From: a virus
Reading direction: 5' to 3' (one strand)
Virus record (IMG/VR): IMGVR_UViG_3300042541_002482
Span: 1-26,446 of that record
DNA length: 26,446 nt
Shown piece after piece: positions 1,569-24,000 of this stretch; position 1 is the first letter of the stretch, and the number at the start of each line of letters is the position of its first letter. Both the position numbers and the translations under genes were made by a program. The notes beneath the pieces are model-generated. The model made no database searches and had not been told where the DNA came from. It saw only the letters and a list, made by a program, of their open reading frames with translations.

Positions 1569-2247
1569 TAAATGTAAGTTAGAAAAAGAATTTATTTCTT
1601 TTCATAAAAGTTCAAGGAATAAATGTGGTTATAGGTCAAATTGTATTTCTTGTGAAAAAGAGTATAAAGAGGTCAATAAAGATAGATATAAAGAATATTC
1701 AAAAAATAGAAGAGATTCAAAAAAACATGAGTTAAAGGAAAAGGCATCTAAGTATTATTTGATAAATAAGGAAAAAATTATATCAAAAAGTAAGGAATAT
1801 TATGAAAATAATAAAGAATCTAAGATAGAGTATCAAAAAGAGTATCAAAAAAATAATAAAGATAAGAGAAATACTTATCTAAGTGAAAGAAGACAGAATG
1901 ATCCTTTGTTTAGACTAATAACAAATGTTAGAAATTTAATATATAATTCATTCTATTATAATGATTATTCAAAAAATTCAAAGACTGAAGAACTATTAGG
2001 ATGTTCTTTTGAAGAATTAAAAGAGTATTTAGAATCTAAGTTTGAGCCTTGGATGAATTGGGATAATAGAGGATTGTATAGTGGTGAGTTTAACTATGGT
2101 TGGGATATAGATCATGTTATACCATTATCAAGTGTAAATAAAGAAGATGAAATAATAAAATTAAATCATTATACTAATTTACAACCACTCTGTAGTAAAA
2201 TAAACAGAGATATAAAGAAAGATAATTTAGAATATGGCGTCATATAA
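1555..2247 (+). CDS. HNH homing endonuclease with N-terminal zinc finger
   Basis: 230 residues from ATG 1555; an in-frame TTG at 1534 would add seven residues, but ATG is more likely. C4, C7, C30 and C33 form a CxxC...CxxC zinc finger. Residues 35-115 are a lysine- and tyrosine-rich helical linker. The HNH fold occupies about residues 183-225, with I-D-H-V-I-P-L-S (H187), then L-N-H-Y-T-N-L-Q-P-L, then N217. This is typical of free-standing phage homing nucleases that cut unoccupied genomes. It overlaps the HTH ORF by 14 bases at its 5' end and the portal gene by 14 bases at its 3' end, so the element is inserted tightly against the portal start. Codon use is strongly A/T-biased, more so than in the portal. 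The target is unknown; an adjacent gene such as the portal is the usual expectation. Confidence 0.85.
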   Translation: MKSCSKCKLEKEFISFHKSSRNKCGYRSNCISCEKEYKEVNKDRYKEYSKNRRDSKKHELKEKASKYYLINKEKIISKSKEYYENNKESKIEYQKEYQKNNKDKRNTYLSERRQNDPLFRLITNVRNLIYNSFYYNDYSKNSKTEELLGCSFEELKEYLESKFEPWMNWDNRGLYSGEFNYGWDIDHVIPLSSVNKEDEIIKLNHYTNLQPLCSKINRDIKKDNLEYGVI

Positions 2248-3997
2248 TAATTTCAGTCAAGAGAATCAAAATAATGTTGGATCAAACTTTGCGGTAAATT
2301 CATCTGGAGTTGAGAATAAAGGTTTATTTAGTAGGATTTTAAGAAACTTATCATCATACGGAATGAATTTTGATGACATGATTGTGAGGAATCAAGTAGG
2401 TATTGGAATAAATGAGGATCCTTATGCGGCTAAAGGAAATTCGATGTACGACTTCTTCTCCCAAAGGGCCGTTGCATCAGTACTAAACAGAAAATCCATT
2501 CCTTATTTAGATAAAGCTTACGCAGATAAAAGAAGAATTTTAAGAGAGTATTCTGTAAAGGATGAAATTAGAGACTTTATAAGTACTATTGCAGATGAGT
2601 GTGTAGTTTATAATGATGAGAAAGACTTTTGTTCTCCTACTGCTCTCCCAACGTCTTATTCACAAGAAATACAAGAGAAGTATCAAGAGTATTTTGAGAA
2701 ACTTTATAACAAGTTTGGTTTCGCTGATAATATCACTGCTTGGAATATGATGAAGGATTTCCTAATTGATGGATATTTGGCATTGGAGATTATTTATGAT
2801 GATAAAAAGAAAAACATTATTGGTTTTAACAGAATTAGACCAGAAACTGTAGTTCCTGCTTATGAACCAGCAATTGGTCACTTATGGATTCAGTTCCCTG
2901 AAGATCCACAATTAAGAAGAATATTTTTAGATTCTCAATTAGTTTATATTTCCTATTCAACTCAAAATGAGTTTTCAGAAACATCTTATATTGAGGGTTT
3001 AATTAAACCTTATAATCAATTAAAAATCTTACAACAAACAAGAATAATGTTTAACATTATTAATGCTACTGTTTATCAAAAGTTTACTATTCCTATTAAA
3101 GGTATGTCTAGACAAAGAGCAGAAGAACAAATTGGTCAATTAATCCATGATTATTCTGAAGAAGTAGAATGGGATGAATCATTAGGTACAATGACTATCA
3201 ATGGTTCTAAACACTTACCTTATAATAAACAAGTTTGGTTCCCTGAAGGAGATGGTGGAACACCAAATATGGAGTTAGTTTCTCCACAAGGTCATAACTT
3301 AAATGATGACTCAATGTTAGATTGGTTTTTTAAAGCTTTAAAAAGAGCCTCAAAGATTCCAATGTCGAGATTTGAAGGCGAAAATGGTGGTGGTAACTTA
3401 ATTACTGATGCTGGAGAGATGACAAGAGATGAGATTAAGTTTCATAACTTTATCAGTAGATTAAGAGCAAACTTCAAAGAATTGATTGTAAAACCATTGA
3501 GATTACAAATGTTGATCGAGTTCCCTGAATTAACAGAGGATGAATTCTTTACAAATGGTGTAGATATAACATTCTTCTCAAATCAAGTATTTGAAGAGTG
3601 GAAAAAATTAAATAACTTAGAAAAGAAAGCTGGTATTGTTGGTACAATGCTTGGGGTAATGAATGGTGATAAACCTTACTTCCATATTGAATGGATTATG
3701 GATAACATTTTCAAATTAACTCCTGAGGAAAAAGCAGAGAACCAAAAATACTGGGATAAAGACGCAATGAATGCCGCAGCTAACGCAACTGGTGAACCAG
3801 GTGCACCATCCGAAGGTGGTGGAGGTGGAATGCCAGAAATGGGTGGTGCCCCAGAAGGTGGTGGTCAAGCCGCACCAGAAGCGGGTGGTGAAGCTCCTGC
3901 ACAAGGTGGTGCTCAGGGTGGTGCACAAGCTGCACCTCAAGCAGCACCTGAACCTCCTGCACCAGAAGCGCCGGGTGGTGGGGAATTTGAGTTCTAA
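2234..3997 (+). CDS. 20: Portal vertex protein (T4 gp20 type)
   Basis: 587 residues, slightly longer than T4 gp20 (about 520). The portal core shows E-Y-S-V-K-D-E-I near 104-111, an I-R-P-E-T-V region, and N-L-I-T-D-A-G-E-M-T-R-D-E-I near 388-401, a hallmark of T4-type portals. The protein forms the dodecameric ring through which DNA is packaged and to which the neck attaches. The last 70 residues are a low-complexity tail almost entirely of Gly, Ala, Pro, Glu and Gln, ending G-E-F-E-F. This tail is GC-richer than anything around it. The ATG at 2234 lies inside the end of the HNH gene. A strong hairpin terminator follows at 4006. Confidence 0.92.
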   Translation: MASYNNFSQENQNNVGSNFAVNSSGVENKGLFSRILRNLSSYGMNFDDMIVRNQVGIGINEDPYAAKGNSMYDFFSQRAVASVLNRKSIPYLDKAYADKRRILREYSVKDEIRDFISTIADECVVYNDEKDFCSPTALPTSYSQEIQEKYQEYFEKLYNKFGFADNITAWNMMKDFLIDGYLALEIIYDDKKKNIIGFNRIRPETVVPAYEPAIGHLWIQFPEDPQLRRIFLDSQLVYISYSTQNEFSETSYIEGLIKPYNQLKILQQTRIMFNIINATVYQKFTIPIKGMSRQRAEEQIGQLIHDYSEEVEWDESLGTMTINGSKHLPYNKQVWFPEGDGGTPNMELVSPQGHNLNDDSMLDWFFKALKRASKIPMSRFEGENGGGNLITDAGEMTRDEIKFHNFISRLRANFKELIVKPLRLQMLIEFPELTEDEFFTNGVDITFFSNQVFEEWKKLNNLEKKAGIVGTMLGVMNGDKPYFHIEWIMDNIFKLTPEEKAENQKYWDKDAMNAAANATGEPGAPSEGGGGGMPEMGGAPEGGGQAAPEAGGEAPAQGGAQGGAQAAPQAAPEPPAPEAPGGGEFEF

Positions 3998-4035: not shown

Positions 4036-4487
4036 GGAATTATTTTTTCTAATTGTTTATCTCTATGTTCTTGTAAAGAAGTCGGTATCATATTAAAAAA
4101 AAGATGATTACCTATGAGAACTTGCTTTATTGTTAAAAATAGACCATCTTTTAATATGGCTTTAACTATCTCACCATTTTGATTTTCGATACAATGTACT
4201 TTTAATGTTAGTTTTTCAATTTTACTATCATTTAAAATAAATGTCATACCACTTACAGTACAACATATATTTTTCATAGGTACTACATCATCATTACTAT
4301 CAAGTGTAATAAACTTTGAAATGTTATCTATATCAAACTCTATTCTTTTGCCTTGTTCTAGTAGAAGATTTAATTTTATCTCACGATATATTGACTTCCA
4401 CTCTTTATAAGTTGATAAAGCGTCATTATAATCATCTAATTTTACATCATCATCTAAATCAACATCTAAGAAAAAATCCGGTTCCAT
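4026..4487 (-). CDS. Hypothetical protein downstream of RNase R
   Basis: 153 residues, not recognised. The N-terminus is very acidic (eight Asp or Glu within residues 2-19), the middle is mostly beta-prone with alternating hydrophobic residues, and the C-terminus is basic. No signal peptide, membrane segment or metal-binding motif is visible. Its ATG overlaps the RNase R stop by one base (TAATG on the minus strand), so translation is probably coupled. It is the last gene of an operon read from 6770. A partner or regulator of RNase R is a reasonable guess from context only. Confidence 0.75.
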   Translation of the reverse strand: MEPDFFLDVDLDDDVKLDDYNDALSTYKEWKSIYREIKLNLLLEQGKRIEFDIDNISKFITLDSNDDVVPMKNICCTVSGMTFILNDSKIEKLTLKVHCIENQNGEIVKAILKDGLFLTIKQVLIGNHLFFNMIPTSLQEHRDKQLEKIIPKK

Positions 4488-6370
4488 TAAAATAATTCAA
4501 AGTCTATTTGTTTTCTGTCTAAGTCAACTGATTTAACGGTTACTTTTACTTCATCACCTAATCTTATTGATCCACCAGATTTTAAATTAACTGTATAGTT
4601 TTCTGTGTCAACACTATGATTACCATTATATCTAACCATACCTTCACATTTACTTTCAATTAACTCAACATACATACCCCAGTCAGTTACTCCTGATACA
4701 ATTCCATCAAAAACTTGTCCGATTTTATCTTCTAAGTATTCAATTTGTTTGTATTTAATAGAATCTCGTTGAGCTTTTGCTGCTAAGATTTCTCTCTCTG
4801 AACACCATTTAGCCATACCTTCAATTTTTTGAGGACTTCCAGTAGATTTCTTGTTTAAGAAATCCATTAAAACTCTATGAGTTATTAAATCTGGGTATCT
4901 TCTAATTGGAGAAGTAAAGTGAGAATAGTGAGTAAATCCTAATCCATAGTGTCCTGCATTTACTATTGTATAAGTAGCTTTAGACATACATCTTGTGATT
5001 AAAGTTTCAATCATATTTTCTTCTGGTTGATCTTTTATATCAGCAACTAATTGGTTTATAGATTTTTTCAAATTAGTAGTATCTGATGTTAAATCTAAAC
5101 TATAACCAAAGTTTTTACATATTAAGGAAAGTGCTTCCAGCTTTTCAAGATTGGGACTATTGTGTACTCTGTATACATTATGGTATCTAGCATCTGAAAG
5201 AAGTTTTGCAACTAATTTATTTGCTAATAACATATATTCTTCAATCAGTTTATTTGCATCTTTTTGAGTTTTAAAATAAACACCTGTTGGCTTCTTTGTA
5301 GTTTGGTCTAATTGAAATCTTACTTCAATTCCACCCATTTCAATAGAACCATCATTTATTCTTTGTTTTCTCATTTTCTTAGCAATCGAATCTAATAGTA
5401 GTATTTCAGTTTTGAAATCACCGTCTTTACCTTCAATTATTTCTTGAGCTTCTTCATAAGAGTATCTTCTATCTGAATGTATAATAGTTTTTCCAAACCA
5501 TTTATCAAGTATTTGTCCGTCATTGTTTAGTTTAACAATAACAGAGAAACAAAGTTTATCTTCATTAGGTCTTAATGAACATACACCATTACTTAATCTT
5601 TCTGGTAACATTGGTACACATCTATCAACTAGATATACAGATGTTGCTCTTTTAATAGCTTCTTCATCGATTATTCCACCTTCTTTAATATAGTGTGAAA
5701 CATCTGCGATATGAATACCTACTTCAACTGTATTATCATCAATTATATTAACTGAAAGAGCGTCGTCAAAATCTTTGGCGTCAACTGGGTCAATTGTAAA
5801 GGTTGTGGTATTTCTTAAATCTCGTCTGTTACTGATTTCTGATTCGGGAATTGTGAAGTCTATTAATTCCGCTTCGGCTTCTACCATTAAAGGAAAGTTG
5901 TTTGGTAAACCGTACTCATACATAATTGAGTTCATTTCTGCATTATTTTCACCTGAACTACCAAGTATCTCTACTATTTTTGCTTTAGGTGATTTTGTTC
6001 CTGGTTCCCAGTCTATTAATTCGATAAGAACTTTTTGGTCTTGTAATGCGTCGTGTTCTCCTTTTATATAAAAGTCGACTGCAATTTTTTGACTGTCGGG
6101 TACTACAAAGATAAGTCTTTTATTTTCTTTGTTTATTTGTACTTTACCGACAAATTGAGTTCTAAATCTTTCAAGAACTTCGAGAACTTCAGCTTCTAGC
6201 TTATTGTTCTTAGTGATTATTTTCACTTTTACTTTATCACCGTTAAGTGAGTTGAGAGTGTTTCTTTTAAATATAAAGATATTTTTATCTAAAATATTTA
6301 TTGAGGCATTTCCGCTGTTTGCGAAATCGATAGTACCCTCAAAAATACTATCTTCTTTAATTTTATTCAT
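4487..6370 (-). CDS. rnr: RNase R/RNase II family 3'-5' exoribonuclease
   Basis: 627 residues. Order: N-terminal cold-shock-like OB domains (about residues 8-65 and 72-135), the RNB catalytic domain (about 183-505) and a C-terminal S1 domain (about 550-627). The catalytic box I-D-P-V-D-A-K-D-F-D-D-A gives D194, D200, D202 and D203, matching the four metal-binding aspartates of E. coli RNase II in spacing. Downstream are G-I-H-I-A-D-V-S-H-Y near 219-227, R-L-S-N-G-V-C-S-L near 258-266 and T-S-P-I-R-R-Y-P-D-L near 486-495. The active enzyme degrades RNA, including structured RNA, from the 3' end. It lacks the N-terminal HTH and long basic tail of E. coli RNase R (813 residues), but all catalytic parts are present. 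It overlaps the upstream gene by 8 bases and the downstream gene by 1. This is an unusual gene for a phage. Confidence 0.93.
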   Translation of the reverse strand: MNKIKEDSIFEGTIDFANSGNASINILDKNIFIFKRNTLNSLNGDKVKVKIITKNNKLEAEVLEVLERFRTQFVGKVQINKENKRLIFVVPDSQKIAVDFYIKGEHDALQDQKVLIELIDWEPGTKSPKAKIVEILGSSGENNAEMNSIMYEYGLPNNFPLMVEAEAELIDFTIPESEISNRRDLRNTTTFTIDPVDAKDFDDALSVNIIDDNTVEVGIHIADVSHYIKEGGIIDEEAIKRATSVYLVDRCVPMLPERLSNGVCSLRPNEDKLCFSVIVKLNNDGQILDKWFGKTIIHSDRRYSYEEAQEIIEGKDGDFKTEILLLDSIAKKMRKQRINDGSIEMGGIEVRFQLDQTTKKPTGVYFKTQKDANKLIEEYMLLANKLVAKLLSDARYHNVYRVHNSPNLEKLEALSLICKNFGYSLDLTSDTTNLKKSINQLVADIKDQPEENMIETLITRCMSKATYTIVNAGHYGLGFTHYSHFTSPIRRYPDLITHRVLMDFLNKKSTGSPQKIEGMAKWCSEREILAAKAQRDSIKYKQIEYLEDKIGQVFDGIVSGVTDWGMYVELIESKCEGMVRYNGNHSVDTENYTVNLKSGGSIRLGDEVKVTVKSVDLDRKQIDFELF

Positions 6371-6956: not shown

Positions 6957-9152
6957 ATGAAACCGGTTTTAATAGTAGAAAATTCAACAAGTTCTTTGAT
7001 TAAGGAAAATTCCTCTAATCAAAAAGACTATGTATTGGGTGGTACTTTTACTGAGTTTGGTGTAAAGAATCGTAATGAGAGAATATATCAAGCTGAGAAA
7101 TTTTTACCATCATTACAAGAAATGAACGAAAGAATGAACAGCTTAGGTGCTGTCTATGGTGAATTCGATCACCCGGATGTCTTTGATACTTCGTTATCAA
7201 GAGCATCACACATTATTACAAAGGCAGAGTTTGTTGCTGAAAAGAACATCGTTGCTGGAGAAATAAAATTACTAAGTACTTACTGGGGTAAAGAAGCGAA
7301 AGCATTAGTTGACGATGGATGTCCAGTTTTTGTATCATCAAGAGCAGCGGGTATAACAGAATCAGATGGTTCAGTATCATTGAAAAAACTTTTTACTTAT
7401 GACATTGTTGCGGATCCAGGATTTGCTTCAGCGAAAATGAGTGTTAGAGTTTTGAATGAGTCATTAGGTTTTTGCCCAGAAGGACAAATCGAAAAAAATA
7501 ACTTTAGGATATATGAATTGTCCGACGAGTCAAAAATAAATGAATTATTCGGTATGAACAAAGATGAATTTGTAACCAAGAAACAACTAAGTGATTATTC
7601 ACAGTATTTGGTTAAAGAGATTGCTTCAACAAAGAATGAAGTAAAAAGTGCTATTTCTAAAGGTAATATGCCTGCTAAGAAATTAGAACAACTATTAGAG
7701 TATTATGAGGAATTAAATAATACTAACACACAAGTTGCTAAATATTTAGATTATTTAGCTGATAAAATACAAGTTGTGGTTAATGAAAATAAATCATTAA
7801 AAGACACTACTACTAAATTGGCTAAACACAATGATTATTTAGCTGAAAACTTAGAAAAGGCAATTAATTACTCAGAATACTTAGCTGAAAACTTAGACAA
7901 AAACATTGAATACTCTGAGTACTTAGCTGAAAACTTAGACAAAAACATTAACTATTCAGAATATATTGCTGAGAACTTAGATAAAAATATCTCTTACTCA
8001 GAATACTTAGCTGAAAACTTAGACAAAAACATTGAGTATTCAGAATACTTAGCAGAGAACTTAGACAAAAATATCGCTTACTCTGAATATATCGCTGAAA
8101 ACTTAGACAAAAATATCGCTTACTCAGAATATATTGCTGAGAATGTTGATAACTCAATTGCTTACTCAGAATACTTAGCAGAACACGTAGAAGGTAACAT
8201 CGCTTACTCAGAATACATTGCTGAGCATTTAGATGATAACATCGCTTACTCAGAATATGTAGCTGAAAGTTTAGATAAATCTATCTCTTATCAAGGAATG
8301 ATCGTTGAAAGATTAAATGGTGGTTTTAAATTAAACGAATCTGCTGAAGAAGAAGAAGCTCAATTTCCAACTTTAAAAGATGCTGGTTTTGAAGAAAACG
8401 AAGACGAATTAGGTGAAGAATTAGAAGGACAAGAAGAAGGTGAAGGTCACGGAGATTTCGCTGAAGAAGCTGAGAAATTCGCAGCAGAAGCTGAAGAGTT
8501 TGCAAAAGATGCTGCTGAATTTGCTGGTCATGAAGGACACGAAGGTGAAGAACATGATGAAGAAGAATTTGGAGGTGAATCACAAGAAGAAGATTTCGGA
8601 GGAGAAGAAGCACCAGAATTTACAGGTGAAGAAGACTCAGAACTTTCTGAATCAATAAATAGATTAATTGAAGAAGCTAAAAAACGTAAAGTTTCTGAAA
8701 GCAGTGATTTGAACTTTTTAAAGTTCTTAAACAAATCACAAGTTGATAGCTTTTATGCACTATCAGACGAAGAACAAGAAAGCGTGAAACTACACATAAA
8801 CGAAAGTAGTTATTTTACACAAAAAGAAGTTCTTACTTTGATTGCTGAGTCATTATCAACAAAAAACGAATCTCTTGAAGAAAGAGTAATCAGATTAATG
8901 CCTGAAAACATGAAGCCAATCTGGGGTCAGTTAAACGAATCTGTGAAGAAATCAGTTTTATCACAAGCTAGATTGTATCCAGAAGACGTATTAAAAACTG
9001 AAAATCAAATCGAGCATTTCTGGGCAACTAGAAATCTTAAAAAGAATGAGTCTGTAACTAAGAAATTAGTATCTCATGAAGCGTTAATTCAAGAAGACAA
9101 ATTGTCAAGTAATGAAATGACTGCAATAATGGAAAGATTCAGAAGCTTATAA
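6957..9152 (+). CDS. 21-22: Fused prohead core protease and scaffold (T4 gp21 + gp22 type)
   Basis: 731 residues. Residues about 1-170 are a T4 gp21-type serine protease (MEROPS U9/S80): G-E-F-D-H-P (H72), F-V-S-S-R-A-A-G (S127/S128) and V-A-D-P-G-F near 151-156. Residues 205-290 are helical, and 291-458 are twelve 14-residue repeats of the form Y-S-E-Y-L-A-E-N-L-D-K-N-I-x, two heptads per unit, so probably a coiled coil. Residues 462-565 are extremely acidic (E, D, G, A), and 565-731 form a helical C-terminus. In T4 the protease and scaffold are separate genes; here they are one polypeptide immediately upstream of the capsid gene. Ten of the repeats contain L-A-E or I-A-E, the T4 protease cleavage consensus, so self-digestion during maturation is likely. 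Additional L-N-E or I-N-E sites occur at 166-168, 459-461, 613-615 and 659-661. Confidence 0.9.
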   Translation: MKPVLIVENSTSSLIKENSSNQKDYVLGGTFTEFGVKNRNERIYQAEKFLPSLQEMNERMNSLGAVYGEFDHPDVFDTSLSRASHIITKAEFVAEKNIVAGEIKLLSTYWGKEAKALVDDGCPVFVSSRAAGITESDGSVSLKKLFTYDIVADPGFASAKMSVRVLNESLGFCPEGQIEKNNFRIYELSDESKINELFGMNKDEFVTKKQLSDYSQYLVKEIASTKNEVKSAISKGNMPAKKLEQLLEYYEELNNTNTQVAKYLDYLADKIQVVVNENKSLKDTTTKLAKHNDYLAENLEKAINYSEYLAENLDKNIEYSEYLAENLDKNINYSEYIAENLDKNISYSEYLAENLDKNIEYSEYLAENLDKNIAYSEYIAENLDKNIAYSEYIAENVDNSIAYSEYLAEHVEGNIAYSEYIAEHLDDNIAYSEYVAESLDKSISYQGMIVERLNGGFKLNESAEEEEAQFPTLKDAGFEENEDELGEELEGQEEGEGHGDFAEEAEKFAAEAEEFAKDAAEFAGHEGHEGEEHDEEEFGGESQEEDFGGEEAPEFTGEEDSELSESINRLIEEAKKRKVSESSDLNFLKFLNKSQVDSFYALSDEEQESVKLHINESSYFTQKEVLTLIAESLSTKNESLEERVIRLMPENMKPIWGQLNESVKKSVLSQARLYPEDVLKTENQIEHFWATRNLKKNESVTKKLVSHEALIQEDKLSSNEMTAIMERFRSL
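7827..8330 (+). repeat. Twelve tandem 42-bp (14-codon) repeats in the scaffold
   Basis: Period 42 bases, encoding 14 residues each. The first unit (starting H-N-D) and the last (starting Y-Q-G) are degenerate; the ten between are close copies that vary mainly at the last residue (E, N, S or A) and L/I/V before A-E. Nucleotide identity between central units is high but broken by synonymous changes, so the protein pattern appears to be under selection rather than the repeat being freshly amplified. Confidence 0.95.
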
Positions 9153-9240: not shown

Positions 9241-10980
9241 ATGTCACACATTAGAATAGATAATCAAAAAGCCATGAAAAAATGGTCTCCAGTGTTGGAA
9301 AACATGGGAGTTACAGGTGATAGAGTAGAATGGATGTCAGAATATGCTGAATTTCACTCAATCAACGAAAATGCGTATGTAAACGCATCAAACGTAACTG
9401 GTATGGGTGGAGTACTTGCTGCTCAACCTGGTTCTTATCCAGGACAAACAATTGGTGGTTCTTTAGCAACTGCTAATACTGTTGGAACAATTGGTTCAGG
9501 AGACGTAGGTCAAAACTTATTACCAGTTGCAATGAAAATTGCTGCTCAAACAATTGGTTTAGACTTAGTAGCTGTTAAACCAACTCCAGGTCCAAAAATC
9601 GACTTATTATATATTGACTTTCAATATGATGCTACTCGTTTAGGCGATGCAGATGAAAGACCACAAGTTTTCAAATTAAATGCAACTAACATCGCTGCAG
9701 TTAACTCAATCATTACTGCAAATATTCCTTCTTATATTACTCAAACTCAAGGTGGTTTATCAGGTGGTAGATTATGGTTTAAAGGAATCAATGCAACTGG
9801 TGTTACTGCATCAGCAGTTTTAACTTCTGAGCCAACACAAAAAACTAACGTAGTTGAATTCTTAGGATTCTCTCGTATTGATGGTTTCCCAATGTTTAGA
9901 GCGTACAGACAATCTAATACTGCTGGTACACAACAACCTTATGGTGTTCAACAAAATGCTTGGGGATTTGATACATTAAGAAATACATTCTCTGCAACTG
10001 CGTCAATGACTTCTCAATTTTCTTTTATTGTATCAACTGCTGTAAGTGGTGGTACTATCGAATTAGTATCTGCTTTAGAAGATCATATTCCTGGTTTCTC
10101 TGCAAACTGGTTTGGACCAACTTCTTCAGCTTCTGGTGCTTATCCAATGGATAGAGCAAATGATGATGATAGTTATTCAGGTGTTATTGGACCAAAAATC
10201 TCTTCTAAAACAGTTGCTGTTGGTACTATCGAAGTATCTTCTGCACTTAGAAGAACTGAGATTGAAGATATTAAAGCTAACACAGGTATGGATATCGTTC
10301 AAAAAATGGAATCAATCCTTGTTAATGAATTATCTCAAACAATCTCTAAACAAATTGTTAATAAAATATTTGAAATGGGTTCATTAAATAGAACTAATGC
10401 TCCTGTTGCAGGTGCAACATTCTCGAATGCTATTACTCTTGCATATGGTTCACAAACAATCTTTGACTTAGATACAACTTATGCTGCTACAAATGGTGTT
10501 GTTGGTGGTGAGACTACTCACGCTGTACAAAGAAAATTGATCACTAAAATTGCTCATGCTTCTAACTATATCGCAACAGAAGGACGTGTTGGACCAGCTC
10601 AATACTTAATCACAAATGGAGGTTTAGCTGCTGCATTACAAGATATTGCTGGTTATACTATCAACCCATTAAAATCAAAAATGAACTCTCAAGGTCAATT
10701 ATACCCAGTAGGTTCAATCGGAGACATCTCTATCTATGTTGATCCATATATGAGATATAACGATAACAGAATCGTTTTAGGAAGAAAAAATAACCCTGAT
10801 CAACCAGGTATTATTTTCGTGCCTTACTTAATGGCTCAGTCAATTAGCATCATCTCTGAAGCTACATTCGCACCAAGAATGTTACTTAGATCAAGATATG
10901 CAGTAACTGAAGTTGGTTGGTACCCACAAAAACAATTCATGACTATTGTAGTTTCTGATACAAGAGGATTACTTAACTAA
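9241..10980 (+). CDS. 23: Major capsid protein (T4 gp23 type)
   Basis: 579 residues, longer than T4 gp23 (521). The N-terminus has the W-S-P-V-L-E box (residues 15-20). Residues about 99-113 read I-G-L-D-L-V-A-V-K-P-T-P-G-P-K, the hallmark at the start of the gp23 fold. The C-terminus contains the P-Y-L-M-A-Q region and a typical R-Y-A-V-T-E-V-G-W-Y-P end. A propeptide is likely: I41-N42-E43 matches the T4 protease consensus L/I-x-E, so mature protein may begin at N44. The protein forms the icosahedral shell after cleavage by the upstream protease. It follows the protease-scaffold gene by 88 bases and ends before a strong terminator. The codon pattern is the most regular of the window, as expected for a highly expressed gene. 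Confidence 0.93.
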   Translation: MSHIRIDNQKAMKKWSPVLENMGVTGDRVEWMSEYAEFHSINENAYVNASNVTGMGGVLAAQPGSYPGQTIGGSLATANTVGTIGSGDVGQNLLPVAMKIAAQTIGLDLVAVKPTPGPKIDLLYIDFQYDATRLGDADERPQVFKLNATNIAAVNSIITANIPSYITQTQGGLSGGRLWFKGINATGVTASAVLTSEPTQKTNVVEFLGFSRIDGFPMFRAYRQSNTAGTQQPYGVQQNAWGFDTLRNTFSATASMTSQFSFIVSTAVSGGTIELVSALEDHIPGFSANWFGPTSSASGAYPMDRANDDDSYSGVIGPKISSKTVAVGTIEVSSALRRTEIEDIKANTGMDIVQKMESILVNELSQTISKQIVNKIFEMGSLNRTNAPVAGATFSNAITLAYGSQTIFDLDTTYAATNGVVGGETTHAVQRKLITKIAHASNYIATEGRVGPAQYLITNGGLAAALQDIAGYTINPLKSKMNSQGQLYPVGSIGDISIYVDPYMRYNDNRIVLGRKNNPDQPGIIFVPYLMAQSISIISEATFAPRMLLRSRYAVTEVGWYPQKQFMTIVVSDTRGLLN

Positions 10981-11000: not shown

Positions 11001-11027
11001 AAAAAAGACCCAATTGGGTCTTTTTTT
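11001..11027 (+). terminator. Capsid gene terminator
   Basis: A perfect stem AAAAAAGACCC / GGGTCTTTTTT with an AATT loop ends in seven T. It lies about 20 bases after the capsid stop and ends 7 bases before a TATAAATA box for the next gene. A TTG-initiated reading frame for the next gene would run through this stem, which argues against that start. Confidence 0.88.
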
Positions 11028-11033
11028 GTTTTA

Positions 11034-11041
11034 TATAAATA
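11034..11041 (+). promoter_or_regulatory. T4-late-type promoter box TATAAATA
   Basis: An exact TATAAATA lies directly between the capsid terminator and the ATG at 11053. With T4 spacing, transcription would begin only about 6 bases before the ATG, giving a near-leaderless message, which is tolerable in a host that does not depend on Shine-Dalgarno pairing. Confidence 0.5.
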
Positions 11042-11052
11042 ATATATACATT

Positions 11053-11445
11053 ATGAGATTAAAGAAATATTCACAGTTTAATGAATCTAAGAAAGATAAG
11101 TTTCCAAATATTAAAAAGATGGAAATTGATGGATTTTTAGTACATCTGGGTAAAGATGCAAAGTCTAATGACCATCTAACGTTTAATGTTGCTGATAATG
11201 ACGATATATGGATGCACGTAAAGGGTGTTCCTGGAAGTCATGTTGTTATCGTTGTTAGAGATAATATACCAACTCCTGAGTTAATTAAAAAAGTTGCTGA
11301 AATTACAAAAGATAATAGTAAGTCAAAGGGTACCGGTAATGCTGTTGTGGTGTACTGTAAAAGACGTTTTGTCTCAAAAAGACCAGGTATGAATGATGGT
11401 CAAGTAATGGTTGACTACAAAAATGCACATGAAGTCACTATTTAA
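11053..11445 (+). CDS. Stand-alone NFACT-R (DUF814) domain protein with head-targeting-like N-terminus
   Basis: 130 residues from ATG 11053; an upstream TTG at 11014 is rejected because it lies in the capsid terminator. Residues 25-130 match the NFACT-R domain found at the C-terminus of RqcH/Rqc2/NEMF. They show D-G-F-L-V-H-L-G, then N-D-H-L-T-F, then D-I-W-M-H-V-K-G-V-P-G-S-H-V-V-I (51-66), a P-E-L helix ending N-S-K-S-K, and a C-R-R-F-V-x-K-x-P-G-x-x-x-G-x-V end. In RqcH this domain helps bind stalled 50S subunits and tRNA; the NFACT-N, HhH and coiled-coil parts are missing here. The first residues M-R-L-K-K-Y-S-Q-F-N-E-S resemble the T4 capsid-targeting propeptide, with a possible cut after E11. 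Domain call is firm; role in infection is inferred. Confidence 0.85.
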   Translation: MRLKKYSQFNESKKDKFPNIKKMEIDGFLVHLGKDAKSNDHLTFNVADNDDIWMHVKGVPGSHVVIVVRDNIPTPELIKKVAEITKDNSKSKGTGNAVVVYCKRRFVSKRPGMNDGQVMVDYKNAHEVTI

Positions 11446-11478: not shown

Positions 11479-12861
11479 ATGGCCTTTACAAATGACTATA
11501 AAATGAGATATGAAGATGAAATAAAAATTACTTTTTCTGCAAGGTTAAAAACACTTTTAACTAAGATGGAAGATGATTATGATGATTATATCGCATATGA
11601 ACTAAATTGGATGGCGGATCCTAGATCTAAATACGCAAATGATATGAATATATCAAAATTAGATATATCTGATTCAGATTACTTTTTTGACGCTGTTATT
11701 GGTGGTAAAAGACAATACTTAAAAATAGGTACTTTTTTAAGAAGTTATTTTCCTGGAGTTTACGATGATGAAAGTATTAGAAAATTCTCTACTACTATTG
11801 TTCAATTGAAAAAAGGAGTAAAAGTAACTGTTGCACCAGTAGGAACTAGACTAGAACATCAACCTTTTAAATATAATCCTAAAGATGTACGTTCAACTTT
11901 CTTATCTTTAGTTACAAAGACTTATCCAATGGGTCACGAAACAGAAGTTTTACAGTTCTTACCAGACTTAGAAATAGATAAATTTGGTAATTATTATAAA
12001 ATTATTGCAGGTGATAATACTACAATGTTTAGCTCTCACTTAGATACTGCAGATAGAAAACAAGTTGACACAGTATTATTCTCTAAAATGGAAGATGGTG
12101 ATGAATATATTTATACTGATGGTATGAGTATATTAGGAGCCGATGATAAATCTGGAGTTGCTGTTATGTTATATATGATGGCACATAATATTCCTGGATT
12201 ATATTACTTTTTCATTGGAGAAGAAAGAGGTGGTATTGGATCAAGAGATTTAGCAAGTGAATATGATTCATTTGACTATCTTAAAAATATAAAAAGATGT
12301 ATTTCTTTTGATAGAAGAAAAACTGGTTCAGTTATTACTTCTCAATATGGTAGAGTTTGTTGTTCAAATGAATTTGGTGGTGCTTTATGTAAAGAATATA
12401 ACAAAAGTGGATTAAACTTATCTATTGACCCAACAGGAGTATTTACTGACTCTGCATCATTTATGGATGATATTCCTGAGTGTACTAACGTTTCTGTTGG
12501 ATATAATAACGAACATACTGGTAGAGAAATTCAAAATATGACTTATTTAATTAAATTAGCGGAAGCTTCTTTAAAAGTAAACTGGTCCGAATTACCAACA
12601 GTAAGAAAAGTAGGATTAAATGAAGAAGTATTGAGAAAACATAAACCTTTAATTGACGATATTAAAAAATACGCTTTTGGTTTAGAAGTTAAAACAGTTG
12701 GTTATCAAGATAAAATTTTTATTAAGATAGATACTGATATGTCAGATGTTAAAACAATTTTTGACACTCTTTCACAAGTAAAAGGATTAATGTATAAACA
12801 TAAAAATCCAGACCCATACGTTACATTTGATGACGCATTTATTAAAATAGAACTAAGATAA
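11479..12861 (+). CDS. Zinc metallopeptidase, M20/M28/M42 type (paralogue 1)
   Basis: 460 residues. Metal-site motifs run in order: S-S-H-L-D-T (H187, D189), L-G-A-D-D-K-S-G (D222 as bridging ligand), G-E-E-R-G-G (E248/E249, general base and ligand), S-F-D-R-R (D278) and N-N-E-H-T-G (H346). This is a complete dinuclear zinc aminopeptidase or carboxypeptidase set. An N-terminal extension of about 130 residues has no recognisable domain, and the C-terminal 85 residues are an alpha/beta add-on. No signal peptide, so it is cytoplasmic or virion-borne. It is followed one base later by the acidic gene at 12863 and then by a paralogue at 13500, suggesting an ancient duplication. Substrate is unknown; peptide trimming is the family expectation. 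Confidence 0.85.
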   Translation: MAFTNDYKMRYEDEIKITFSARLKTLLTKMEDDYDDYIAYELNWMADPRSKYANDMNISKLDISDSDYFFDAVIGGKRQYLKIGTFLRSYFPGVYDDESIRKFSTTIVQLKKGVKVTVAPVGTRLEHQPFKYNPKDVRSTFLSLVTKTYPMGHETEVLQFLPDLEIDKFGNYYKIIAGDNTTMFSSHLDTADRKQVDTVLFSKMEDGDEYIYTDGMSILGADDKSGVAVMLYMMAHNIPGLYYFFIGEERGGIGSRDLASEYDSFDYLKNIKRCISFDRRKTGSVITSQYGRVCCSNEFGGALCKEYNKSGLNLSIDPTGVFTDSASFMDDIPECTNVSVGYNNEHTGREIQNMTYLIKLAEASLKVNWSELPTVRKVGLNEEVLRKHKPLIDDIKKYAFGLEVKTVGYQDKIFIKIDTDMSDVKTIFDTLSQVKGLMYKHKNPDPYVTFDDAFIKIELR

Positions 12862-13499: not shown

Positions 13500-14807
13500 A
13501 TGGCAAAAAATAAAAAATCCTTTTTCTCTAGAAAAGAAGAAAAAAGTATAAATCCTTTAGAAATAAAGGATACTTTTTTGAAATTAACTGAATATACAAT
13601 ACCTTACGGTCATGAGCAAAAACTAGAAAGCTATTTACCTAAAGGCTATAAAAAAGATTCTACAGGTAACTATTATATCGAAGTAGGTAATTCAGAAACA
13701 TTATTTACTACTCACTTAGATACTTATTGTACTAAATATGAGAAAGTTAATCACGTTATTGAAGGTGATATTATTAAAACCGATGGTACTACTATTTTAG
13801 GTGGAGATAATAAATTAGGAATGTCTATTTTATTATACATGATAGCTAAAGGTATACCAGGAACTTATTACTTCTTCTTAGGAGAAGAACCAATTTTAAG
13901 TGGTGGTTTATGGGGTTCGAGAAATGCTTTAAATGCAGATCCTGAGTTCTTCAAAAAGTTTAAAAGAGCAGTTGCTTTTGATAGAAAACAAACAGGTTCT
14001 GTTGTTTTAAGACAAAAAGCAAGATTTTGCTGTTCACATAAATTTGTAGATACTTTAGCAGAAGAATTAACTTCTTTAGGAATTACTTCTAAGGCAGATC
14101 CAAATGCTTATTACACTGATACGGCGACGTTTTTAGACATTATTCCAGAGTGTACTAACATTAGTGCTGGTGGTTGGAATGAACACTATAAAACAGAGTA
14201 TGTTGATATATCATATACCATAAAGGTTGCCGAAGCTGCTTGTAAAATTGATTGGGAAAACTTACCAACTGAAAGAGAAGTAAAATTTTTCCAACCTAAA
14301 TATAATGTTGCACCAAGACACCGTTTTGTTAGTAGATCTGTTGTTAAAGAAGTTAAATCTATTTTAAACAAATATGATTTATTACACACTAATACATTAG
14401 AATATGATACATTTAATACAGATACATTAGTATTTAATACTTGGTTTGAGGATAAAGATATTAAAGTAACTATTTTAGATGATATTTTAATTCAAATCGA
14501 AGGTCAGAAAGAAGCTAGATTTAGTTTTAAAGATGTTAAGAAATTAAATATTTATTTAGGTAACATTTTCGGTATTGACATTAATCCAGAGGATTATAAG
14601 ATGATGATCTTTACTGACGACTCTGTAAGTGTATTAGGAATGCGTTTTAAGAGCTTTGAAGATTATGTTAAATACTTTGATAGTATTAACACAGATGATA
14701 CGTCATATGTCGTTAAAAAAGGTGGTGAACAATATACTGAGTATTATGGTGATGTGATACCAAAAGAATTAGTTATTAAGTGGTTTACTGATAATGTTCT
14801 TGAATAA
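13500..14807 (+). CDS. Zinc metallopeptidase, M20/M28/M42 type (paralogue 2)
   Basis: 435 residues. The metal-site set is intact: T-T-H-L-D-T (H72, D74), L-G-G-D-N-K-L-G (D103), G-E-E-P-I-L (E129/E130), A-F-D-R-K (D161) and W-N-E-H-Y-K (H229). Shared blocks such as P-G-x-Y-Y-F-F-x-G-E-E, I-P-E-C-T-N and x-K-x-A-E-A-x x-K show that it is a paralogue of the gene at 11479. It lacks that gene's 130-residue N-terminal extension and instead carries about 170 extra C-terminal residues with a mixed alpha/beta pattern. The asymmetric extensions suggest the two have divided roles or form a heteromer. It has its own TAnnTTTG box 17 bases upstream and a hairpin terminator after the stop. Confidence 0.85.
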   Translation: MAKNKKSFFSRKEEKSINPLEIKDTFLKLTEYTIPYGHEQKLESYLPKGYKKDSTGNYYIEVGNSETLFTTHLDTYCTKYEKVNHVIEGDIIKTDGTTILGGDNKLGMSILLYMIAKGIPGTYYFFLGEEPILSGGLWGSRNALNADPEFFKKFKRAVAFDRKQTGSVVLRQKARFCCSHKFVDTLAEELTSLGITSKADPNAYYTDTATFLDIIPECTNISAGGWNEHYKTEYVDISYTIKVAEAACKIDWENLPTEREVKFFQPKYNVAPRHRFVSRSVVKEVKSILNKYDLLHTNTLEYDTFNTDTLVFNTWFEDKDIKVTILDDILIQIEGQKEARFSFKDVKKLNIYLGNIFGIDINPEDYKMMIFTDDSVSVLGMRFKSFEDYVKYFDSINTDDTSYVVKKGGEQYTEYYGDVIPKELVIKWFTDNVLE

Positions 14808-15310: not shown

Positions 15311-15808
15311 ATGATAACAAGATTTGATGGTAGATATGGATTTCTATCAAACTTCTACCCATGTAAAATAGAATACCAAGGTATTACTTATCCTTCAGTT
15401 GAGCACTATTATGTTGCAATGAAGAGTAATAATGATCAAATGATTGATGGTAGATACTATACTGCAGGAGATTTTAGAGAACTAGTTTCTAAGATAACAA
15501 CTGCTGGTAAAGCTAAACAATTAGGAAAAGTAATAAAAGTACGTTCTGATTGGGAAGAAAAACGATTAGGTTTTATGGAGTGGGCACTTCGTGAGAAATT
15601 TAAAATTGAAGAATTAAAAGAAATGTTACTTTCAACTGGTGATATTACTATTATCGAAGGAAATTATTGGCACGATAATTTTTATGGACAGTGTACTTGT
15701 GAGAAATGTGCTGGTAAAGGAAAGAATAACTTAGGTAAACTTCTAATGCAGATTAGAAGTGAGTTAAATGGTACTCAAAGAAAAGGATTAGAATCAATTT
15801 TATTTTAA
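15311..15808 (+). CDS. NADAR family (YbiA/RibX, DUF1768) ADP-ribosyl glycosidase-like protein
   Basis: 165 residues, normal family length. Motifs in order: G-F-L-S-N-F-Y-P (10-17), P-S-V-E-H-Y-Y-V-A-M-K (28-38), W-E-E-K-R-L-G-F-M-E-W-A-L (81-93), T-G-D-I-T-I-I-E-G-N-Y-W-H-D-N-F-Y-G (109-126) and N-N-L-G-K-L-L-M-Q-I-R (139-149), with a C-T-C-E-K-C cluster at 128-133. NADAR proteins are N-glycosidases. Characterised members act on riboflavin intermediates or remove ADP-ribose from guanine bases, and they often sit with toxin or NAD-metabolism genes. In a phage the likely purpose is to undo host ADP-ribosylation defence or to alter NAD metabolites; this is inference. It is a monocistronic unit between two terminators. 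Confidence 0.9.
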   Translation: MITRFDGRYGFLSNFYPCKIEYQGITYPSVEHYYVAMKSNNDQMIDGRYYTAGDFRELVSKITTAGKAKQLGKVIKVRSDWEEKRLGFMEWALREKFKIEELKEMLLSTGDITIIEGNYWHDNFYGQCTCEKCAGKGKNNLGKLLMQIRSELNGTQRKGLESILF

Positions 15809-21089: not shown

Positions 21090-24000
21090 TTATAATTCAA
21101 CTACAGAAATACTTATATCTCTTACTCTTGATACACCACCTGTAATTGATGCCAAGCTTATATCAACCCAATATGGTGTATTTAATACCAATCCAGTTTG
21201 TATTGCATTTAATGAGAACGGAACTCTTGTTACTACAGTTGCACCGCCTGATACAACCGCACTCATTTTCACTAATCCACCTTGTGCAGTTCCTGTTGGA
21301 GAAATACCGTTTGTTGGTACAGAACCAGTACCAGTTCTTATTTGCACTTGTGAACCATTATCACCAGTATCATTATCCATATCTCCAGATATAATAATCA
21401 TTATTTTACCACTAATCACTGGAGTTATAGATGCAGATAATCCCATCATTACACCAGTTAATGAAGATGTAGTTGTAGGATCTGTTGGATTTTTCTGTGT
21501 TGTTGCATGTGTAAAAGGTTGTGCTTGCCAAGTAGCTTGTGTTGCAGATACTGCGGTTAAAACTTGTCCAATACTAGGTGCTGTTGCAACAATATAAACA
21601 GGATTAGTTGTTGTTTTTAATCCATTTGCATCAACATAGTTAGTATTATCAATAATTGTTTTATTAGTCAAAGACTGAGTTGAGGTTGTTATATTATTTA
21701 ATATTACTTTATCCCCAAAAGACATAAATCCAGATTGAGTTGTTGTTACTAAAGCATGTAAAGTACCACCTGCTTGGTCACCATGTGAATGTATGTGGTC
21801 TTGTCTTGCAAAGTCTGAACTTGAACCAATCTGATTAGTTGTTCCAATTGTTGATGGAGTACCGGTTGGTATAGTTTGCCAAGTTGCAGCAGTTGCCGAT
21901 ATTGCAATTAAAGTTTGTCCAACACTTGGTCCATCCGCAACTATATAAACAGGATCAGTCGATGTTTTTAAGGCATTTGCTTCAACATAACTACTTGACC
22001 CAGTAATTGTTTTATTTGTTAAAGATTGTGTTAAACTTGTAATATTATCTAATATAAGTTTATCAGCAGAAGACATAAACCCTGATTGAGTTGTAGTTAC
22101 TAAAGCGTGTAAGGAGCCACCTGATTGACTACCGTGTGCGTGAATATGATCTTGTCTTGCAAAAGCATTTGCACTACCAATCTGATTAGTTGTTCCTATT
22201 GTTGATGGTGTTCCAGTTGCTAAAGCATCTGAACCAGCAGGTAAATGTCTAGATGAATGTGATGATATATTGACTGAGTTGATTAAATTAACACCTGTAA
22301 TAGAATTACTACCCATTTGTAAATTACCAGTTAAAGTTCTTGTACCATTTGTTAATAAGTATTGTGGGTGTGAATCAACATTTAAGTTCAACAATGAAGA
22401 GTGATCAGCTGAGGCATTAACTCCAGGTGCTCTAAATCCAATTACTGGTCTTTGATCTCTAATTTCTACTATACTTGAAGTTCCTTGTTGAACTATAATA
22501 CCTGCAATAAGTGCCACTGCATCTGTAAAGTAACTTGGTGGTGTTGGTAAACTGGCTTCTTGTGCATCTAATTGTGTAGAATACTCATTTGTATCATAAA
22601 CCATAAAATACTTTTCATCACCATTATCGCCTATTATATAAAGTGAGTGTTTGGTAAAGTAACTCGCACTTAATCCAATTAATGAGTTAGTACCAGCATA
22701 ATAAGTATTATCTACTGAATTAGTTGTTGAGATTACCCAACCACCTGAACCATTTGGATAATAACTACTGAATGTTATTCCAGTTCCACCTGCGGGTAAA
22801 AACTCATTGGCACCATAGTAGAATGTACCTTGTGATACATCTAACTTAAATGGAGTTGTATTTTCAGTAACAATAGAACCATTTGAATAAATAGCTCCTA
22901 ATCCTTTTCTAAATAATCTAGTTGCATTATTTGCCCAGTGTTCTGCTTGAAGAGGTGATCTCTCAATAAACTCAAATCCAGTTGAATTAGTTCTAACTCT
23001 TCCTAATAATATATTCTCACTTGTTATAGGAATTGTAGGATCTGATGTTAAATAACCATTATTATCAAAGTAAACATAGTGTGTTGAACTTGTTGCAATA
23101 GAAATACTTTGAGTACCCCAAGTTAATTTATTTAATATACCAGGTCCAATAAAAATATTGTCATGGTAATAACCATATCCAGCTGAAACACTAAGTGTTA
23201 ATCCAGAAGTATTTGATAATTCACCACCATAAATAACACCCATAGTTGATGTTTGTGCAATCAATGTTGATACATCAGTTACCACTGTAGGTGAATATCT
23301 GATATTTAATCCTCCAGTAATTGTAAAATCTCCTGATGTTGTATCTTGTACAACAATACTACAATTAGGTGATGCAGTTGAGATAGTATTAGTATCAAAT
23401 GAACCACTTAAACTACCAACTGTATCTGGATGTTCTAAAACTATTTGATTAGTTGTATTTTGACAGGATATTGCAACACCTATTAGTGTTGATCCTAATT
23501 CACCTACTAAACTATAATATTTATTATAGATTCCTGTCTCCCATGCGGTAAAGTTTACTGCATTTAATCTACATTTTGCACCTTTTTCAATTTGTAAGAA
23601 TGTTGTTCCTGATACTATTGTATTTGCATTTGCTTGAACAGAGTTCATTACTATTTCACAATTTTCACCAGATGCTTTTGCAAATGTTGTTGGTCCTGTT
23701 ATCAACATTCCTTGTGAATAACAATGTAAAAGTAGTATTCTTGCCGAGATTGAATTATTATTGTTATAAGCTATAAATCCATTTGTAAAAGAGAATGTGT
23801 CACCATATCTACAGTCAATAACTTGTACAGTTGTTCTATTAGTATCTGCATAACAGATAACTTGATTATAGTTTGATCCAAAAATACAATCTTTTATAAC
23901 GAATGCACTTTGAGCGTCACCTGTTGGTGAGGTATGATAAAAAGCTGCATATCCTGGATCTGTTGCACCAGTTACTAAACAACCCATTACTGTTGAATAA

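Follow-up and report, generated by a model that had tools for sequence, protein, structure and literature searches.

The 26,446-bp stretch of virus DNA analyzed here (IMG/VR record IMGVR_UViG_3300042541_002482; "the window" hereafter) encodes a 731-aa protein that joins a predicted prohead protease to a putative scaffold, within which twelve consecutive 14-residue units each terminate in the motif [L/I/V]-x-E. The conservation of this motif suggests that the scaffold is built to be chopped into short pieces, making room for DNA. The repeat region probably forms a helical prohead core that the fused protease would dice at a 14-residue spacing; the cutting, the formation of a helical bundle and the exit of the peptides are steps that we infer from the sequence.

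A protease-scaffold fusion between portal and capsid genes

The fusion gene is flanked by genes encoding a gp20-like portal protein and a gp23-like major capsid protein (MCP). Predicted features of this region, all on the plus strand, are listed below, with an arrow placed at each candidate cut position.

2234–3997 (+): T4 gp20-like portal protein, 587 aa (Pfam Portal_T4, E 6.3e-59)
6957–9152 (+): prohead protease-scaffold fusion gene, one uninterrupted ORF of 731 aa, conserved from end to end in the family (alignment)
6957–7460 (+): protease domain, aa 1–168 (phrog_207, alignment with T4 gp21, AF2 model and Foldseek match to 5jbl)
6972–6980 (+): candidate N-terminal autocleavage site I-V-E8↓N (E8 37/37, P3 Ile 37/37), aligned with LIE-9 of T4 gp21
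7452–7460 (+): candidate protease-release site L-N-E168↓S (E 37/37, P3 L/I, P1' Ser 37/37), aligned with I-T-E187↓S of T4 gp21
7554–7556 (+): candidate internal start codon Met200 (Met in 93/93 main-clade sequences; A/T-rich upstream)
7779–7787 (+): candidate site V-N-E277↓N, immediately upstream of the array (E 36/37)
7806–8309 (+): array of twelve 14-residue units, aa 284–451, each terminating in [L/I/V]-x-E
8331–8339 (+): candidate site L-N-E461↓S, immediately downstream of the array (E 37/37)
8340–8624 (+): acidic linker whose length varies among relatives (alignment, low-confidence model)
8625–9149 (+): conserved helical C-terminal domain (alignment and low-confidence model), containing candidate sites I-E-E573↓A and I-N-E616↓S
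9241–10980 (+): gp23-like MCP (Pfam Gp23, E 2.7e-28)
9361–9369 (+): candidate MCP propeptide cleavage site I-N-E43↓N, with [I/M/L]-x-E↓N/S in the MCP N-termini examined

The N-terminus of the fusion protein matches head maturation proteases (phrog_207, E 3.8e-28). It scores 16.4 bits against Pfam PF03420 (Peptidase_S77), below the curated cut-off of 27, and thus is a distant member of Peptidase S77 by the Pfam model. The fold in the AF2 model of the domain (pLDDT 77) stops at residue 166, and the best Foldseek matches to this model are T4 gp21 (5jbl A–C), with E-values of 1.1e-5 to 1.5e-5 and a TM score of up to 0.63. H72 and S127/S128 are invariant, and align with H85 and S140, the catalytic His and Ser of T4 gp21. 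The matches, the model and the aligned residues support assignment of the N-terminal part as a T4 gp21-type prohead protease fused to a scaffold, as the earlier note had claimed; cleavage after L/I-x-E is predicted from motif conservation.

Conservation of candidate cut sites outside the array was evaluated in an alignment of 37 sequences. E8 and E168 bracket the modelled protease fold and align with E9 and E187 of T4 gp21; in T4, LIE-9 has been noted as a possible autocleavage site (PMC9026906). The two candidate sites in the C-terminal domain are also conserved. Across the conserved Glu columns outside the repeats, P3 is L/I/V/M in 9/13, compared to 28/148 of the other conserved columns (Fisher p 2.7e-4). 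The pattern [L/I]-x-E↓N/S is common to both protease ends and the MCP. Short ORFs at four loci are truncated MCP paralogs with pieces of the propeptide and N-arm, and the one in LR745206 retains S-I-N-E↓N. We considered such paralogs as extra substrates and rejected them, as they are truncated and I-N-E↓N is retained in some only.

Fusion of the protease to the scaffold poses a stoichiometry problem, to which the candidate Met200 start may be an answer. Judging from its conservation and from the A/T-rich DNA upstream, Met200 could serve as an internal start and give a scaffold-only product without the protease. A parallel is found in T4 gene 21, which has an internal start (PMC9026906).

Several other genes in the window have recognizable domains. 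An RNase II/R-type exoribonuclease (RNB, E 2.1e-107) is encoded on the opposite strand at 4487–6370 (−), between the portal and protease genes. Two peptidase-like proteins are encoded right after the MCP gene (11479–12861 and 13500–14807); the former has a Peptidase_M28 match below threshold, and similar ORFs occur at the equivalent position in many relatives. A small protein with an NFACT-R RNA-binding domain (11014–11445) and a NADAR-domain protein (15311–15808, E 3.4e-24) were also identified. The product of 104–631 (−) has a TnsA-like nuclease fold and matches PHROG head closure families. Finally, a 351-bp repeat is present in two copies at 21586–22219, inside a minus-strand ORF of 1,505 aa.

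The 14-residue array and its conservation

Read in the register that ends at Glu, the units end in LAE (six), IAE (four), VAE (one) and IVE (one), so that 12/12 fit [L/I/V]-x-E. The earlier note had described twelve 14-residue units at 7827–8330, ten of them with L/I-A-E and one with V-A-E. This is the same array in a different register, and the twelfth unit, IVE, is also an L/I-x-E motif. In the DNA, TRF detects a 42-bp period at 7839–8279 (10.5 copies, 77% matches, no indels). The hydrophobic moment in the array has its maximum at 103 degrees per residue, indicative of a two-heptad helical unit, and the full-length model predicts, at low confidence (pLDDT 53.6), an unbroken helix from residue 281 to 453. 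Of the two-heptad coiled-coil unit suggested in the earlier note, the two-heptad helix is supported by both sequence and model. Position 14 (Glu) faces outward, 155 degrees from the hydrophobic face, and position 7 is the equivalent heptad place; Tyr8 and Tyr11 likewise lie on the outer face.

The whole 731-aa protein contains 25 copies of [L/I]-x-E compared to 15.1 expected (p 0.0035). Outside the array, in this protein alone, the excess is not significant (14 compared to 9.8 expected, p 0.085), and the MCP and portal proteins, each taken whole, have no enrichment in the motif. Candidate matches of the helical region to other proteins were rejected: those to PHROGs were weak, of the coiled-coil type and to unrelated tail and unknown families, and a profile search of PDB sequences returned a low-complexity match only.

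Relatives of the fusion protein are encoded on at least 369 candidate IMG/VR stretches. The nearest named records are those of huge phages (LR745206, 634 kb; LR756502, 642 kb; LR756501, 735 kb; LR756504, 636 kb; and LR756500, 462 kb), and the protease-scaffold family includes huge (Mahaphage-type) phages of 462–735 kb. The largest of these huge-phage genomes were previously placed in the Mahaphage clade with Lak phages, with predicted Bacteroidetes hosts (PMC7162821). Comparing repeat counts among related phages, which the earlier note had put forward as a check, reveals arrays of 8–16 units, with exactly 12 in 72/96 distinct arrays. There are 12 units in the 634- and 642-kb genomes, 11 at 636 kb, 13 at 735 kb and 10 in a genome of at least 597 kb. 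Among the few genomes compared, copy number shows no clear relation to genome size, and we did not adopt such a link.

Selection on the motif was examined in 96 distinct arrays comprising 1,147 units, a sample dominated by close relatives. Glu occupies position 14 in 1,140/1,147 units and P3 is L, I or V in all 1,147; Asp does not replace Glu14 in any of the main-clade units. Pairwise codon differences at position 14 (from non-independent pairs) comprise 13,092 synonymous and 119 replacing changes. The resulting replacement/synonymous ratio of 0.009 is the lowest of the 14 positions, compared to 2.17 at position 7 (again pairwise and non-independent), which is the most variable position despite being the heptad equivalent of position 14. 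On a tree built from 72 twelve-unit arrays, parsimony requires one change at position 14, one at Tyr8 and 73 at position 7, along with 69 at P3, all of them among L, I and V. Exposure alone is therefore insufficient to explain the conservation of Glu14, given that position 7 is equally outward. The claim that each unit carries one regularly spaced L/I-x-E motif thus holds, and the motif is under strong selection. Other positions are nearly fixed as well: in units 2–11 on the same tree, Tyr11 has no changes, Glu10 three, Ile6 four, Ala13 four and Asp3 five. The last unit retains I-x-E but has other residues in place of Tyr11, Glu10 and Ala13, and the P1' residue that follows is mostly K or R, unlike at other sites.

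The array is confirmed to be neither a chance occurrence nor a recent artefact, given the 96 distinct arrays in relatives, with thousands of synonymous differences among them and Glu almost never replaced. A shuffled-sequence control on two related genomes yielded no unit comparable to the 14-residue repeat.

A sister clade grouped around the 462-kb phage keeps the 14-residue period and has Glu in 38/55 distinct units, those without it carrying L, K, N, S or V at that place. Position 8 is Tyr or His in 74/76 unit instances. P2 is unconstrained, with at least nine residues (A, V, S, N, K, I, G, D or M), and P3 is still L/I/V, which, together with the frequent Glu, is the pattern expected of an L/I-x-E site. 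That the repeat persists in units that lack Glu shows the 14-residue periodicity to be more basic than the cut site, or to predate it, and the losses of Glu indicate that the site is not required in every unit.

Proposed dicing of the core and alternative explanations

In the mechanism that we propose, the repeat would form a long amphipathic, coiled-coil-like helix that builds the prohead core, each two-heptad unit presenting on its outer face one L/I/V-x-E recognition site of the fused protease. The candidate Met200 start may supply scaffold that lacks the protease. After closure of the shell, the protease would release itself at candidate sites E8 and E168, trim the MCP at I-N-E43↓N and cut the core into peptides of ~14 residues, which would exit the head and leave space for DNA. 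The interpretation in the earlier note is plausible, and part of it is supported. Points against dicing are that sites within a stable helix need local unfolding before they can be cut, that P1' at the last unit is unlike that at other sites, and that units of the sister clade can do without Glu. If the mechanism is correct, the unit of the polymer would also be the unit of cutting, a simple sequence rule for building and then removing the core of a very large head. In T4, the structure of the core and the mechanism that determines size are described as not settled (PMC3012670). A regular repeat with fixed cut spacing would be a tractable system for linking core length, cut spacing and peptide exit, and natural repeat-count variants (8–16 units) are already available for comparison.

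The outward residues could have another role. Tyr8, Tyr11 and Glu14 may form an outer stripe through which core helices pack side by side or bind the MCP or portal, with L/I-x-E as a by-product and cutting confined to the flanking [L/I]-N-E↓S sites. Tyr8 and Tyr11 are on the outward side too, with a conservation close to that of Glu14, Tyr/His8 is retained in the sister clade, and the [L/I]-N-E↓S/N sites at 168, 277 and 461 would be enough to release the core in large pieces. Such a binding stripe stays a live rival because Glu14 is not unique, the positions of Tyr8, Tyr11, Glu10, Ile6, Ala13 and Asp3 being nearly fixed. However, the last unit keeps I-x-E without Tyr11 and Glu10; the sites in the MCP and at the protease flanks have no Tyr stripe, their one common feature being [L/I]-x-E↓N/S; the motif is also enriched in T4 gp22, which has no 14-residue repeat; and Glu14 is never Asp in main-clade units. 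We therefore consider the stripe unlikely, and favor dicing on the basis of the motif kept in the last unit, the P2/P3 pattern of the sister clade, the recurrence of the motif outside the repeat and the MCP site.

Compatible with dicing is the notion that the repeat serves mainly to measure out the length or size of the prohead core, its copy number setting head dimensions and the cut sites being secondary. Copy number is tightly held, most distinct arrays having 12 units, and, according to reviews of T4, it is the core that determines the shape of the head (PMC3012670). A ruler nevertheless leaves the constraint on Glu unexplained and copy number has no clear relation to genome size, so that we rate this role as quite improbable. 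Tandem arrays also homogenize, and the units within one protein are alike, as expected had a recent or conversion-homogenized duplication left units that are similar through common origin and not through selection. Yet the DNA copies match at only 77%, and the codons of position 14 differ overwhelmingly by synonymous changes (in non-independent pairs) while position 7 is free; we give this explanation almost no credence. A broader version of the dicing mechanism, which we find doubtful, is that the unit is a portable assemble-and-destroy module, copies of which on other proteins, such as those of the 735- and 634-kb phages described below, would draw these proteins into the core and release them when the head matures.

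Comparison with known systems and units in other proteins

The protease of T4, gp21, cleaves on the C-terminal side of L/I-x-E and breaks gp22 down into multiple fragments, the majority of which exit the head (PMC9026906). The window resembles T4 in its gene order (portal-protease-scaffold-MCP), in its homologous protease with aligned His and Ser, and in having candidate sites at aligned places at both protease ends. The presumed scaffold part of the fusion, assigned this role by its position between protease and MCP, is rich in L/I-x-E, as is gp22 with 16 [L/I]-x-E in 269 aa compared to 5.8 expected. In T4, however, protease and scaffold are encoded by separate genes, and the sites in gp22 are irregularly spaced (4–41 aa) without a tandem repeat. 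Cutting at all sites would yield 14-aa pieces from the array and irregular pieces of 4–41 aa, averaging ~16, from gp22. Given the dense sites in gp22, the principle of dicing would be common with T4, and it is the regular implementation that differs. Comparing the C-terminal domain with T4-like gp22, hhalign detected no similarity (E-values of 0.26 or worse) with gp22 alignments of one or two sequences.

The domain layout resembles that of P2 gpO, in which an N-terminal protease and a C-terminal scaffold make up a single chain that cleaves itself and the capsid protein (PMC7552001), although no periodic array of cut sites is described there. The fusion also occurs in Lak phages, in their case without the 14-residue repeat. 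One of them (Prevotella phage Lak-A2) encodes a related protease (41% identity) fused to an acidic scaffold, with I-N-E↓S after the protease and 16 [L/I/V]-x-E compared to 8.0 expected (p 0.001); unlike the protein in the window, this fusion lacks the 14-residue repeat. Other gp21 relatives from large phages, phiKZ gp175 and SPN3US gp245, cut after x-x-E, and long propeptides are removed by multiple cleavages in these phages (PMC9026906, PMC10052503). They differ in P3 preference (A-x-E in SPN3US), and their described substrates are propeptides without a tandem repeat. Literature searches among open-licence papers turned up no scaffold described as having periodic cut sites. The earlier note had called such a scaffold new to its author, which is right for the exact 14-residue periodicity and overstated otherwise: dense, irregular sites (T4 gp22) and a protease-scaffold fusion (P2 gpO; PMC7552001) are already known.

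Units of this kind also occur in other proteins of the huge phages. In the 735-kb phage (LR756501, ~620141–620266), a 210-aa protein that has a collagen-like GxSG stretch carries three 14-residue units close to its C-terminus; in the 634-kb phage (LR745206, ~460483–460635), a protein of ~66 aa carries three to four. None of the shuffled ORFs carry units like those in these two proteins. At ~716337 in LR756501, an 80-aa ORF has two weaker units and a 237-aa ORF has one (KYSDYVGETLDASL); their units fall under the 11-bit threshold, and both ORFs end in a likely transmembrane segment.
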